Made by a program: the position numbers and the translations under genes. A DNA stretch of 64,000 nt, from contig NZ_QQBA01000001.1 of assembly GCF_003350545.1 (NCBI RefSeq), forward strand, positions 201,489-265,488, in the 5' to 3' direction. Position 1 is the stretch's first letter, and every line of letters starts with the position of its first letter. Shown piece after piece: positions 51,626-55,949 of the stretch. The notes under the pieces were generated by a model that saw nothing but the letters and a program-made list of their open reading frames with translations, ran no database searches and was not told the DNA's origin. This DNA comes from Flavobacterium glaciei. Lineage in GTDB: Bacteria; Bacteroidota; Bacteroidia; Flavobacteriales; Flavobacteriaceae.

Positions 51626-52501
51626 TTATTTAAAAAAATCATTTAAAATTATTGATGTGAACTTGCGTGCTCCAGCATCATTCATGTGCCCACAAGAAGA
51701 AAAATACTCATCACCCTCAACCGCTTTTTCATAATTGTGAATTTCGGGATACATTTGATGCACTTTCTCAAAATAATCTAATCCTTTAGTATTAGTACAC
51801 ATGGGTGTCATAACGGCTATAAGGTTAATATCATTTATTTTGCAAAGATGCTTTATTTCTTCGTAGTATTTATTATGTAGAGGTTTTAGATTAGTCAAGT
51901 CATTTTTCATATTAGCTTTTGGTTTTTTACCCAATGGATAATAGCCTAAATGATCCAATAACTTAGTTGGTTTTTTTAGAGCATCATTATACATTTCCCT
52001 AAACCCTATTTGAGGTTCGAAGACAATATACCTGTAAAAAGGAAGGTAATAGTTAGTCCAAAAATCAGGTTGTTGTGCAAAATGTGATGCTATAACTTTA
52101 GAATCGTGAATATATGGCATAAATTTAGACGCCACACTTTCAGACTCCTTTTCATTCGACAAGTTCAAATCGGCTTCAAGGATTACATTTTTTATGATAT
52201 ACTTCCGTTCTATCATTAATTTAAGAAACAAAGAGGCTTCAAACAAATGCCCGCCACTCATACCATAATTAAAAGCTTTTAACCCTTTATCCTCAAACAT
52301 TGGTGCAACAAAATGATTATTAGCTCTAGAGGACCCTAAAATAACTACATCATAAACCCTACCTTTTGAATTGTATACATACCCTATTTTCCCTCTATTC
52401 GAAGACTGCAAATACACTTTTGTATAGACAAAATCTAAAACAACCAACACAAGTAAGGTCAGTAGAAGTATTTTTGTTGTAAAAATTAAAAATCGTTTCA
52501 T
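51626..52501 (-). CDS. SGNH-like membrane-anchored protein (O-acetylation partner?)
   Basis: A 291-residue protein with one N-terminal membrane helix (about 5-25) and a periplasmic SGNH-hydrolase-like domain. Block I is G56-S-S58-R (VVILGSSRANN) and a late His (H272) lies in 'SSCGHMNDAGARKF'. The residue three before that His is Ser, where the paralogue at 55958 has Asp (DxxH). This copy may therefore be altered in activity. Its opening and spacing match that paralogue, which is next to an MBOAT acyltransferase. Family members of this architecture (AlgJ/AlgX, PatB-like) move acetyl groups onto polysaccharides. Confidence 0.68.
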   Translation of the reverse strand: MKRFLIFTTKILLLTLLVLVVLDFVYTKVYLQSSNRGKIGYVYNSKGRVYDVVILGSSRANNHFVAPMFEDKGLKAFNYGMSGGHLFEASLFLKLMIERKYIIKNVILEADLNLSNEKESESVASKFMPYIHDSKVIASHFAQQPDFWTNYYLPFYRYIVFEPQIGFREMYNDALKKPTKLLDHLGYYPLGKKPKANMKNDLTNLKPLHNKYYEEIKHLCKINDINLIAVMTPMCTNTKGLDYFEKVHQMYPEIHNYEKAVEGDEYFSSCGHMNDAGARKFTSIILNDFFK

Positions 52502-52559
52502 TGCTGTTATATTCTCTTTTATATTATGGTTTTAAATTCTTAAATATTGCAATGGCTTT

Positions 52560-52610
52560 GTAACATTGAGCGCAGTCTAAACACTCCACTTGATCAGTGA
52601 GTTGCGCTTT
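52560..52610. repeat. 51-nt array unit (leader-type), copy 1
   Basis: It begins with a degenerate left arm (gtaacattgagcgcagtc), continues through 'acttgatcagtgagttgc', and ends exactly where the first full palindromic unit starts (52611). It is the same length as the unit at 52829-52879 and clearly related to it. The tail also matches the DNA between the nuclease gene and the third block (53921-53943). Confidence 0.75.
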
Positions 52611-53545
52611 GTCACGTCGAGCGCAGTCGAGACGCTTATTATTCTAAAACTGATGATTTCCCAAGACAATCTCGTCTTTAGCTAGTTCTGAGCTAATCTC
52701 GACTGTGCTCGATTTGACACCTTACCCATTCTTGTCACGTTAAACGCAGTCGGGACGCTTTTTATTCTAAAACTGATACCGACCTTAGATAATCTCGACT
52801 GCGCTCGATTTGACAACGTACCCTTCTTGTCACGTCGAGCGCAGTATGAAAACTCTACTTGATTATTGAGTTGCACTTTGTCACGTCGAGCGCAGTCGAG
52901 ACGCTTTCTAATCTAAATTAAAATCACCTTGAGACGATCTCGACTTTAGCTAGTTCTGAGATAATCTCGACTACGCTCGATTTGACAACGTACCCTTCTT
53001 GTCACGTCGAGCGCAGTCGAGACGCTTTCTATTATAAAACTAATATCGACCTGATAAAATCTCGACTGCGCTCGATTTGACACCTTACCCTTCTTGTCAC
53101 GTCGAGCGCAGTCGAGACGCTTTTTATTCTAAAACTAATATCGCCCTGATTAAATCTCGACTGCGCTCGATTTGACAACGTACCCTTCTTGTCACGTCGA
53201 GCGCAGTCGAGACGCTTTTTATTCTAAAACTGATATCGTCCTGAGACAATCTCGACTTTAGCTATTTCTGAGATAATCTCGACTGCGCTCGATTTGACAA
53301 CGTACCCATTCTTGTCACGTCGAGCGCAGTCGAGACGCTTTTTAATCTAAAACTGATATGGACCTGTGATAATCTCGACTTTATTCCGTCCTGAGCTAAT
53401 CTCGACTGCGCTCGATTTGACAACGTACCCATTCTTGTCACGTCGAGCGCAGTCGAGACGCTTTTTATTCTAAAACTGACATCGACCTGAGATAATCTCG
53501 ACTACGCTCGATTTAACACCATACCCATTATTGTCACCTCGAGAC
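52611..53545. repeat. Palindromic repeat array, blocks 1-2
   Basis: Tandem units each open with arm A (gtcacgtcgagcgcagtc gagacgc) and close with an inverted arm B (tctcgactgcgctcga tttgacaa). Arm A starts at 52611, 52734, 52829, 52880, 53001, 53096, 53191, 53314 and 53437, with a truncated one at 53533. Spacings are 95-96 or 121-123 nt except for one 51-nt unit. Arms of a unit pair over about 24 bp (tgtca…/…tgaca plus 16 perfect bases, interrupted by cg against tt). The longer units have a ~28-nt internal duplication (ctcgactttagct…). Arm B of one unit also faces arm A of the next as a second, shorter inverted repeat. Confidence 0.93.
52829..52879. repeat. 51-nt array unit (leader-type), copy 2
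   Basis: Arm A broken after gcagt, then 'atgaaaactctacttgat' and 'tattgagttgcacttt', ending at the next full unit (52880). The tail aligns with the sequence upstream of the nuclease gene next to block 3. It has no arm B. Confidence 0.75.
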
Positions 53546-53556
53546 TTTTAATCAAA

Positions 53557-53889
53557 TTATTCATTTACGTCTTCACCATCTGGTTTGTATTTATGATGCG
53601 TTGCATTTCTACATTCTGATAAATTTTGTAATCTGTCAAAATCCCCATCAATTAATGCTTGCTTTTTTAATCTACTCCATTTTTTTAATTTCTTTTCAAA
53701 CTCAATAGCCTGATTAGGATCTGTAAAATCCTGATAAAAAAATAACGTAACAGGTCTTCTACTATGCGTGTAAGCTTCCTGATATTTACCTGCATTATGT
53801 TCCATAATCCTCCTATCAATATTAGAAGTTACTCCAACATAGAGTGAATCATCATTACAAAGAAGAATATATACATAATAGAATTTCAT
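53557..53889 (-). CDS. GIY-YIG nuclease (URI type) inside a palindrome array
   Basis: A 110-residue single-domain GIY-YIG nuclease: 'FYYVYILLC' (Y5/Y7) and Y17-V-G19, then R27 and H31-N32 (DRRIMEHNAG), and metal-binding E65 (AIEFEKKLKKW). A basic helix and the tail 'LQNLSECRNATHHKYKPDG' follow. All catalytic positions expected for this family are present, so it should be active. The gene sits between a truncated array arm (53533) and a full one (53944). Transcription runs away from block 3, from a promoter at the array edge. Possible roles are DNA cleavage at the palindromes, repeat spreading or housekeeping repair. The association with the array is seen; the role is inference. Confidence 0.93.
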   Translation of the reverse strand: MKFYYVYILLCNDDSLYVGVTSNIDRRIMEHNAGKYQEAYTHSRRPVTLFFYQDFTDPNQAIEFEKKLKKWSRLKKQALIDGDFDRLQNLSECRNATHHKYKPDGEDVNE

Positions 53890-53907
53890 ACTCTAATTTT
53901 TTATTAT

Positions 53908-53940
53908 CAAACCTATCTAGACTTGATAATTGATTTGCAA
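53908..53940 (-). promoter_or_regulatory. Promoter of the GIY-YIG gene (TTG-N22-TAGGTTTG)
   Basis: On the minus strand, TTG (53938-53940), 22 nt and TAGGTTTG (53908-53915) match the flavobacterial consensus. The TTG is only 3 nt from the first base of the array arm at 53944, and the region upstream of the -7 box is the same leader sequence found in the two 51-nt units. The predicted 5' UTR is only about a dozen bases. Confidence 0.65.
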
Positions 53941-53943
53941 TTT

Positions 53944-54471
53944 GTCACGTCGAGCGCAGTCGAGACGCTTTTTAATCTAAAAATAATATCGCCCTGATAA
54001 AATCTCGACTGCGCTCGATTTGACAACGTACCCATTCTTGTCACGTCGAGCGCAGTCAGGACGCTTTTTATTCTAAAACTGATACCGACCTTAGATAATC
54101 TCGACTGCGCTCGATTTGACAACGTACCCTTCTTGTCACGTCGAGCGCAGTCGAGAAGCTTTTTATCATAAAACTAATATCGCCCTGAGACGATCTCGAC
54201 TACGCTCGATTTGACAACGTACCCTTCTTGTCACGTCGAGCGCAGTCGAGACGCTTTTTATTCTAAAACTAATATGGCCCTGAGACGATCTCGACTACGC
54301 TCGATTTGACAACGTACCCTTCTTGTCACGTCGAGCGCAGTCGAGACGCTTTTTATTCTAAAACAAATATCGCCCTGAACAATTCTCGACTTTAGTCTGT
54401 CCTGAGCAAATCTTGACTGCGCTCGATTTGACACCGTACCCATTATTGTCACGTCGGGCGCAGTCGAGACG
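53944..54471. repeat. Palindromic repeat array, block 3
   Basis: Five more complete units, with arm A starting at 53944, 54040, 54135, 54230 and 54325, and a terminal lone arm at 54448. Spacings are 96, 95, 95, 95 and 123 nt. Sequence and pairing are as in blocks 1-2. Several arm-B copies carry tacgctc instead of tgcgctc, without a matching change in arm A. The block ends 45 nt before the MBOAT gene stop at 54516. Confidence 0.93.
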
Positions 54472-54515
54472 AATTATAATTTAAACGTTACTTACAATCA
54501 ATATTCTTATTTATA

Positions 54516-55949
54516 TCAAAACTGAAAATAAATAAATTCTTTGTAATCAGAGTACGTACCCAAAGCTATAATCGCTGCTAGACATAACGTTAATTTCAAA
54601 TAACTATATCTCCCAGAAATAGGTTCTAATTTGGTTCGGCTTTTCCATTCCACAAGTATAAATGCAAGGACTAAAATGATGATTTCAAAATTGTATCGCT
54701 CGTTTTCTAAATACTGAGATTCAAAAATGCGATTTGTAAAAATACGAGTTATGTATTCAAATGCATCTCCTATCGATTTTGCCCTGAAAAACACCCAAGC
54801 CAAACAAGTTAATGAAAAGGTACTAATAATACTTGCAATCACTTTAAGTGAATTCCAATTCCAATACAATGAAACCGTTTCCATATTAGATCTGTTCTTT
54901 TTTAAAAGCAACAACGGTAAAAAATACAAGGCATTAATAAATCCCCACGCTATAAATGTCCAATTAGCGCCATGCCAAAAACCACTGATTAAAAATATTA
55001 CAAAGGTATTTCGAATTTTCATCGCCATGCCACCACTGCTTCCGCCCAAAGGAATATATAAATAATCCCGGAACCAAGACGATAGCGAAATGTGCCAACG
55101 ACGCCAAAACTCAGCTATATCTCTTGAAAAATATGGATAATTAAAATTACGTAATAAGTCAATTCCAAATAATTTTGACATTCCTAAAGCCATATCCGAA
55201 TAACCCGAAAAGTCTCCATAAATCTGAAATGCAAAATAAACTGCTCCCAATAACAATGAAAGTGAATTCATGGAATGATAATTATCAAAAATTGCATTGG
55301 CATAAGTAGCGCACGTATCGGCAATAACTACTTTTTTTACTAATCCCCAGATAAACTGAAAGATTCCCTCTTTGGCCTTTTGATAATCAAAAGTACGTTT
55401 CACTTTTACTTGTGGTAATAAATGTGTGGCTCTTTCAATTGGACCTGCCACCAATAATGGAAAATAGCTGACAAACAAAGAGTAATCCACAAAATTATAT
55501 TCTGCCTTAATTCTTTTTAAATAAATATCAATAACATAAGACAAACCGTGAAAAGTATAGAACGAAATACCCACCGGTAAAACTACATTCAGCAATAAAG
55601 GACTTGTTTGTAATCCAAACCCATTCAGTAAATCGGAGAAAGAATCCGCAAAAAAATTATAATATTTAAAAACACCTAGAAAACCCAAATTGATACTGAT
55701 ACTCAACCAAAACCAAAATTTTCGAGAGCCTTCGGATTTTGCTTTTTCAATTCGAATCCCTGTGTAATAGTCTAAAAAAGTAGAGAAAACCAACAGAAAC
55801 AAAAAACGCCAATCCCAACAAGAATAAAAATAATAACTCGCTATAATAAGAACTGCATTTTGATTGCTTTTATTTTTATTAAAAACAAACCAATACAACA
55901 GGAATACGATAGGCAGAAATATAGCGAAAGATAGAGAATTGAAAAACAT
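54516..55949 (-). CDS. MBOAT family O-acyltransferase (AlgI/DltB-like)
   Basis: A 477-residue polytopic membrane protein. The MBOAT core includes 'YSDMALGMSKLFGI', 'FWRRWHISLSSWFRDYLY' (282-299), 'IPLGGSSGG' and the catalytic-type His326 in 'FWHGANWTFIAWG'. Such proteins pass acetyl groups across the inner membrane to a periplasmic SGNH partner that O-acetylates the glycan. The SGNH-like gene at 55958 ends 8 nt upstream of its start, so the pair is probably a functional module of this locus. Confidence 0.92.
   Translation of the reverse strand: MFFNSLSFAIFLPIVFLLYWFVFNKNKSNQNAVLIIASYYFYSCWDWRFLFLLVFSTFLDYYTGIRIEKAKSEGSRKFWFWLSISINLGFLGVFKYYNFFADSFSDLLNGFGLQTSPLLLNVVLPVGISFYTFHGLSYVIDIYLKRIKAEYNFVDYSLFVSYFPLLVAGPIERATHLLPQVKVKRTFDYQKAKEGIFQFIWGLVKKVVIADTCATYANAIFDNYHSMNSLSLLLGAVYFAFQIYGDFSGYSDMALGMSKLFGIDLLRNFNYPYFSRDIAEFWRRWHISLSSWFRDYLYIPLGGSSGGMAMKIRNTFVIFLISGFWHGANWTFIAWGFINALYFLPLLLLKKNRSNMETVSLYWNWNSLKVIASIISTFSLTCLAWVFFRAKSIGDAFEYITRIFTNRIFESQYLENERYNFEIIILVLAFILVEWKSRTKLEPISGRYSYLKLTLCLAAIIALGTYSDYKEFIYFQF

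Follow-up and report, generated by a model that had tools for sequence, protein, structure and literature searches.

A small GIY-YIG nuclease gene of Flavobacterium glaciei and its relatives is accompanied by clade-matched hairpin repeats, its putative cognate targets

We analyzed a 64-kb stretch of the Flavobacterium glaciei genome (hereafter, the window), in which the gene of a small GIY-YIG nuclease is embedded in an array of short hairpin-like repeats. The reading that we favor, and hold to be reasonably probable, is that of a nuclease with its own cognate REP-like hairpin, which it would cut as single-stranded DNA, and of which the window carries an unusually amplified copy. The parts of this reading differ in strength. 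The hairpin is very probably the cognate target of the enzyme, and the enzyme probably acts on the hairpin in its single-stranded form, while a spread of the units driven by the enzyme is put forward tentatively. Taken together, the sequence comparisons described below suggest that the hairpin is the target and that gene and hairpin travel together.

The arm TCGAGCGCAGTCGAGA (up to 3 mismatches) has 27 matches in the window, 14 on the plus and 13 on the minus strand, and all of them fall within positions 52566-54469. The whole array spans 52558-54471 and comprises 13 inverted A/B pairs in three blocks, namely two pairs in block 1 (52609..52819), six in block 2 (52878..53521), which is located downstream of the nuclease gene, and five in block 3 (53942..54436), located upstream of it. 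The 27 matches do not include the degenerate A arm of the second pair (about 52740-52755). Partial units are present at 52558-52582, about 52827-52846, 53531-53544 and 54446-54471, the last of them being the degenerate final unit of block 3 (plus strand), recognized by sequence and arm search. The thirteen palindromic pairs in three blocks that the initial annotation had described, with an intact gene for a 110-residue nuclease between blocks 2 and 3, are thus confirmed by the arm search and the sequence and, for the gene, by the open reading frame and its PF01541 match. Most pairs are spaced at 95-96 or 121-123 nt, and their A and B arms pair over 24 nt (92%). One 95-nt pair, folded as single-stranded DNA, has a predicted energy of -23.8 kcal/mol (z = -7.8), which was equaled in 0 of 200 shuffles. 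Typical units are the A-type unit at 52999..53024 (plus strand), with a TTGTCA tag, the stem CGTC/GACG and the core GAGCGCAGTCGA, and the B-type unit at 53058..53083 (minus strand), which is inverted relative to A and carries the same core with the stem AATC/GATT. Orientation is constant by type among 21 units of the array: read in the direction of the gene, the 11 units with CGTC are minus and the 10 with AATC are plus.

The partial unit and leader of block 1 (52558..52608, plus strand) recur as diverged repeats before blocks 2 and 3 (52827-52877 and 53891-53941), and these leaders form a repeat family with 86% and 68% identity over 91 nt. Since the leader is repeated with divergence before each block, the three blocks look like duplicates. 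The truncated unit TTGTCACCTCGAG (53531..53544, plus strand) is situated 12 nt beyond the stop codon of the nuclease gene; in the direction of the gene it is minus, the orientation usual for the unit that follows the gene in relatives. The nearest intact unit before the gene has an unusual orientation, whereas the unit after the gene is oriented as usual. Because of the turned upstream unit, the truncated unit at the stop codon and the alike block leaders, the copy in the window looks amplified and partly rearranged.

The nuclease gene itself (53557..53889, minus strand) is intact and encodes a protein of 110 aa. Its PF01541 match (E = 2.6e-19; 69.7 bits at a cut-off of 22.6) assigns the protein to the GIY-YIG superfamily and is its sole Pfam match at E ≤0.001, the HUH tyrosine transposase domain being absent from the protein at the same threshold. 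Five residues (Y7, Y17, R27, H31 and E65) are invariant in all 24 aligned rows of alignment A1, and four of them (Y7, Y17, R27 and E65) we take to be the catalytic GIY-YIG residues.

The repeat unit consists of a TGTCA tag, a 4-bp stem with free but complementary bases, and a conserved 12-nt core, GAGCGCAGTCGA. Searching the loci of 80 named relatives for the core alone (up to 1 mismatch) yielded 342 unique sites, at which the four stem positions are paired in 94, 92, 94 and 86% of cases; after shuffling of the 3' sides, the same positions are paired in 64, 54, 31 and 30%. At the fifth position pairing is at background, so it ends after 4 bp. The tag TGTCA precedes the stem at 260 of the 342 sites. 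Many stem combinations are in use (GGTC/GACC, AATC/GATT, CGTC/GACG, TCCC/GGGA, CCCT/AGGG and others), and covariation this free, confined to exactly four pairs, speaks for a structure read as a hairpin. It follows from the covariation around the core that the unit is the single arm with its tag, short free stem and fixed core. The 95-123-nt palindrome, which had been taken for the repeat unit, therefore stands as an inverted pairing, whereas the true repeat is the single arm, about 25 nt long with its tag. A single 30-nt unit alone has no predicted stable fold (z from +0.2 to +0.7, under an energy model that may undervalue tandem G.A pairs), and thus the case for a hairpin rests on covariation. 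Since the pair is predicted to be stable and the lone unit is not, the inverted pair could also be the form present in the cell.

By their cores the units were divided into three classes: class I with GAGCGNAGTCGA, class II with GAGCYTGTCGA, and class III with GAGTG and TATCGA on either side of an inner hairpin. The core is 11-12 nt long in classes I and II and longer in class III, and covariation of the stem is broadly alike in class II (43 sites) and class III (93 sites). In class III units of several loci (L133, L159, L164 and others) the inner stretch differs from copy to copy and is often itself a hairpin, while GAGTG and TATCGA are fixed. A motif near the C terminus of the nuclease, EC[RK]N, is kept in the 15 class I rows of alignment A1 and not seen in the 9 others, the rows ending where the tblastn match ends, so that their tails are not fully comparable. 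Among class I loci, the number of class I units within 1.5 kb ranges from 1 to 27. The 16 nt that follow a unit are 63% identical within a locus (same strand) versus 32% between loci (strand not matched), a likeness of arrayed copies that is as expected from local amplification.

The units are strongly associated with the nuclease gene in relatives, whose loci were selected solely for the similarity of the protein. The arm (up to 3 mismatches) was found at most 1.5 kb from the gene in 62 of the 80 named loci (330 matches in 262 kb, or 1.26 per kb), versus 8 matches in 422 kb (0.019 per kb, in 3 of the 80 loci) beyond 3 kb; the density near the gene is thus about 66 times higher. The reversed pattern gave 1 match. 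Among the 18 loci without an arm match at this distance from the gene, seven have the class I core with another stem, and 11 have units of class II, class III or another core. A scanner for the unit architecture (GTCN, a 4-bp stem and GAG...CGA) detected units within 1 kb of the gene in 122 of 132 entries, in which one pseudogene is counted twice and some genes occur in two collections. These amount to 525 units in 301 kb, compared with 21 in 438 kb beyond 3 kb and 0 in shuffled flanks. At least one unit of this architecture lies within 1 kb of the gene in all 80 named loci, as well as in the window. By both flanks, the 81 loci fall into 28 genomic contexts (18 by either flank), and units are present in 28 of 28, so that the link between gene and units is not explained by inheritance of a single site.

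The association extends to distant genes from outside the taxonomic family of the window, of which 40 were hand-picked for family spread from the matches listed. At least five repeated 12-mers are found within 600 bp of 36 of these genes (median 41.5 versus 0.5 in control windows of the same loci; p = 5e-8); 33 of the 40 exceed each of their own control windows, and in 4 of the 40 the controls average at least 5 repeated 12-mers. The pattern GTCN-4bp-GA...GA-4bp occurs in 23 of the 40 distant loci (109 copies, versus 12 in 154 control windows). A long-stem REP with a [CT]GTC tag and a perfect 6-bp stem was also considered and is not enriched, having 30 copies in the 40 windows versus 78 in the 154 controls (40 versus 97 for the reversed-tag control of the same search). 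The link between gene and units is not due to chance, and the enrichment of GIY-YIG genes beside such palindromes, for which the initial annotation had proposed to search related genomes, is found in close and in distant relatives.

The nearest units are plus before the gene and minus after it in 51 of the 81 loci. In relatives the minimal element can be seen almost on its own: a TTGTCA-hairpin, the gene and a hairpin-TGACAA make up a cassette of about 400 bp. At one site, between the kinase gene that follows glgE (read by us as a maltokinase gene, without a Pfam match) and a GlgB-type amylase gene, we could compare loci that have the cassette with loci that lack it. Units are present in 7 of 7 loci with the GIY-YIG gene at this site. 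Of 23 loci that lack the gene, two (L226 and L230) are cut by contig ends, and none of the 21 informative ones has units. The 21 empty sites have intergenic lengths of 58 to 1277 (16 of them ≤262), with L231 having no glgB within 1500. One of the loci compared (L216), whose kinase is 96% identical to that of another (L112), has an empty site. A further 18 loci of the kinase site, picked for having the gene and not included in the 7 of 7, gave 17 scorable loci, all with units (17/17). A similar search at the carboxyltransferase locus L148 found its neighboring oxidoreductase gene beside it in 0 of the 30 loci fetched. Neither a target-site duplication nor fresh transposition was seen at the loci compared, and 22 loci are joined by chaining into a single context with both flanks conserved; movement of the cassette is therefore rare. 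Among plasmid and phage records, the cassette nuclease has matches of <60% identity (10 plasmid and 20 phage records) and none closer.

In the window the array is situated between an MBOAT acyltransferase gene, which adjoins it, and an SGNH-like gene, 2.0 kb apart, and two glycosyltransferase genes and an FkbM methyltransferase gene are nearby; the two SGNH-like neighbors were named by reading alone and have no Pfam match. In one relative (L098) the MBOAT and SGNH-like homologs are adjacent (tblastn ends 10440 and 10443), and the cassette is 2.7 kb off.

This neighborhood bears on a reading that we consider rather unlikely yet the most serious of the alternatives, namely that the repeats are host sites and not selfish DNA, and that the nuclease, by cutting repeated sites in incoming single-stranded DNA, tunes natural transformation or recombination near the genes that the units flank. 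A family of GIY-YIG nucleases that cut sequence-specifically and only in single-stranded DNA, with repeated cognate sites, named Ssn, was reportedly described in a 2025 paper in Nature Communications, first in Neisseria, where the nucleases are said to affect transformation and the repeats are called NTS, homologs having sequences of their own. On this account, the statement that a GIY-YIG enzyme in such a role is not an established system was too strong. As in Ssn, the window has a small stand-alone GIY-YIG protein with a putatively cognate repeat in many copies, both around the gene and across the genome, which we take to be a defining feature of that family, and by this analogy the window nuclease is likely to be a member. 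In apparent contrast to Ssn, its gene is bracketed by inverted units, the units have a free 4-bp stem and a core that follows the clade, and they form a tandem array. A host function of this type agrees with the position of the window array in a surface-polysaccharide-like neighborhood, the two neighbors of which bracket the cassette in 11 of the 80 named relatives. However, another large group of loci has the cassette in the glgE-kinase-glgB cluster, which is no variable surface locus, and cassette and units are missing together at the empty sites.

The favored reading, a nuclease with its own cognate hairpin, is further supported by the match between core class and protein phylogeny. A tree was built from 133 entries (the 132 and the window), reduced to 123 proteins by dropping five short or broken frames (<75 aa) and identical proteins; it is based on 108 columns and is thus short and poorly resolved within classes. 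When the class of the nearest unit was mapped on the tree, two changes among the three classes were required, the fewest possible (109 labeled of 123 proteins, the 14 rows without a class I-III unit being left out of this count). With the unlabeled rows as a fourth state, the number of changes is 7 versus 32.7 after shuffling, and none of 200 shuffles was as low. Two paralogs of Flavobacterium psychrolimnae, located 9.4 kb from each other, belong to class I and class II, and each is accompanied by units of its own class (L086 and L152).

The correspondence was also observed for whole genomes. Among 199 genomes of the family, the class I motif is present in 55 of the 63 that have a close gene (E ≤1.1e-20) versus 43 of the 136 others (odds ratio 14.9). 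The eight exceptions among the 63 include six genomes with class III units, one (G039) with 22 class II units, and one (G031) with repeats of other make-up. Of the 63 genomes, the 36 with a retrieved gene locus, not counting G031 and G039, were classed by their best gene, 26 as class I and 10 as class III. All 10 of the latter have more class III than class I units. Class I units outnumber class III units in 20 of 26 genomes with a class I gene and the other 6 have as many or more class III units, likely because of several paralogs. These genome-level counts include the units beside the gene, and the class of a gene is read from its nearest unit, so they are partly circular and weigh less than the tree. 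The share of class III units at the gene varies, being 3 of 3 in G026, 2 of 3 in G107 and 2 of 16 in G101, where 14 are elsewhere. Ten of the 43 motif-bearing genomes without a close gene have at least 8 class I copies each. The initial annotation had further proposed that the nuclease recognizes the palindrome; so far as this can be computed, the enrichment, the core class that follows the clade and the joint presence or absence at one site all agree with it.

Across the genome of the window (3.14 Mb, 42 contigs) there are 71 arm matches (up to 2 mismatches), 26 of them in the array, versus 0 for the reversed pattern; by this and by the density near the gene, chance was rejected as a source of the arm repeats. 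Exact patterns identified 41 class I, 0 class II and 0 class III units. Those arm matches that are not in the window array form an array on contig 14 and a smaller cluster on contig 15 or are dispersed. The contig-14 array (L035:3890-4502) is an orphan tandem array of seven inverted unit pairs with a 95-nt period, the plus units of which mostly have TGTCT and a CATC stem, and none of the four GIY-YIG matches of this genome is on that contig. We assume that gene loss or a diverged enzyme accounts for this orphan array and for class I motifs in genomes without a close gene. Of 42 core matches in 20 loci retrieved from the window's genome, 14 of which belong to the contig-14 array, 33 fall outside ORFs of at least 100 aa, and thus the units are mostly intergenic and dispersed; several form inverted pairs 20-80 bp past an ORF. 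Such positions are what one would expect if the hairpins were ordinary terminators or REPs among which the gene tends to land. This explanation is improbable, being already disfavored by the core class that follows the nuclease tree, the empty sites without units, and the two F. psychrolimnae paralogs with their separate classes.

The structural model of the nuclease (AlphaFold2, mean pLDDT 86.8) has as its nearest solved folds the UPF0213 proteins, followed by Slx1. The UPF0213 GIY-YIG proteins 1zg2 and 1ywl, which have the same fold and size as the window nuclease, were deposited as hypothetical proteins. The similarity to Slx1 is compatible with a housekeeping role, in which a structure-specific enzyme of the Slx1 or UvrC kind would clear hairpins or cruciforms from the DNA and be encoded beside its commonest substrate. 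This, too, is improbable, as neither a clade-specific core nor a tag would be required by such a general enzyme, and its gene and the units would not be missing together. A toxin-antitoxin-like or homing element without a hairpin target, with the repeats as recombination scars, would fit a small nuclease gene with many contexts and variable array size but is highly improbable, since the ORF stands alone in a cassette of roughly 400 bp that has no space for a partner gene, and repeats that pair at just four positions, whatever the bases, are unlike scars.

Under the reading of a nuclease with its own cognate hairpin, the enzyme would most likely recognize the tag and hairpin core in single-stranded DNA, be it the lagging strand, incoming transforming DNA or repair intermediates, and would cut there. 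Repair of the cuts against other copies could then copy units and gene between sites, and the same repair may expand or shrink arrays such as that of the window. The proposal that the nuclease spreads the palindrome is consistent, indirectly, with the dispersed copies, the variable array sizes, the many contexts and the empty sites.

The units resemble known REP families to different degrees. CGTC-tagged REPs are hairpins with a terminal [CT]GTC tag on one side; they are mostly intergenic and predominantly form head-to-head dimers (Di Nocera et al. 2013, PMC3733652). According to that survey, TGTC is a common variant of the tag, dRS3 of Neisseria corresponds to CGTC-1, the five phyla listed include Bacteroidetes, the stems measure 8-9 bp and the loops 4-5 nt, and there is apparently no dedicated transposase (PMC3733652). 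The window units share with these REPs a TGTC-type tag, the mostly intergenic and dispersed locations and the inverted pairs. They differ in having a 4-bp stem with a 12-nt class I core, outside the stem and loop ranges of CGTC REPs, and in the attached GIY-YIG gene. GTAG REPs with their RAYT (TnpA-REP) enzymes are similar in that the gene is flanked by hairpin repeats that are also dispersed and clustered (BIMEs), but the window has the tag TGTCA instead of GTAG and a GIY-YIG enzyme instead of a tyrosine transposase, and with neither an HUH domain nor a GTAG tag it is not a RAYT-REP system. By comparison with known systems, the nuclease would thus relate to its units as Ssn does to its sites and RAYT to REPs, but it is not itself a RAYT.

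Other candidate systems were discarded. The gene is a stand-alone ORF between intergenic repeats, not a GIY-YIG homing endonuclease in an intron or intein. The array consists of inverted heterodimers with repeated spacers, unlike the direct repeats and unique spacers of a CRISPR array. The nuclease has no PADLOC match and a weak PHROGs match (E 3.4e-4), giving no sign of a phage-defense gene, and the sole Rfam match in 52000-55000 is a sub-threshold snoRNA (E 0.54). Papers joining GIY-YIG nucleases with REP-type repeats were not found among the openly licensed papers listed, nor was a link of GIY-YIG to repeats in passages of PMC12306157 or PMC1564403.

The survey of 2013 left open what, if anything, mobilizes CGTC-type REPs. 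We speculate that the dedicated enzyme which [CT]GTC-tagged hairpin repeats seemed to lack is, throughout the phylum, a small GIY-YIG nuclease. REPs would then have a second enzyme system besides RAYT and independent of it, with each nuclease clade reading its own core (the tag and a 4-bp free stem closed by GA...GA) and copying cassette and units by cutting single-stranded DNA. The class-matched pairs of gene and unit would provide ready enzyme-substrate sets for a direct test of whether GIY-YIG nucleases read and spread hairpin repeats, mismatched controls being naturally available within one genome. They would also provide many candidate site-specific single-strand nucleases with predicted targets.

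Several further loci contain small GIY-YIG genes. Near the end of contig 22 of the window's genome (L002/L037) there is a second small GIY-YIG frame, of 82 aa and about 30% identical, with no arm matches nearby. In one relative an in-frame stop codon interrupts the GIY-YIG frame (L112:6004-6312), and the units are still there. Some small GIY-YIG genes (L304, L308, L310, L312 and L315) are also flanked by repeats of the CGTCATTGCGAG and GTCATTCTGA types, which are presumably frequent in genomes of Bacteroidota. Finally, four Bacteroidota genomes (G174, G533, G618 and G673) have at least 16 small GIY-YIG matches each.
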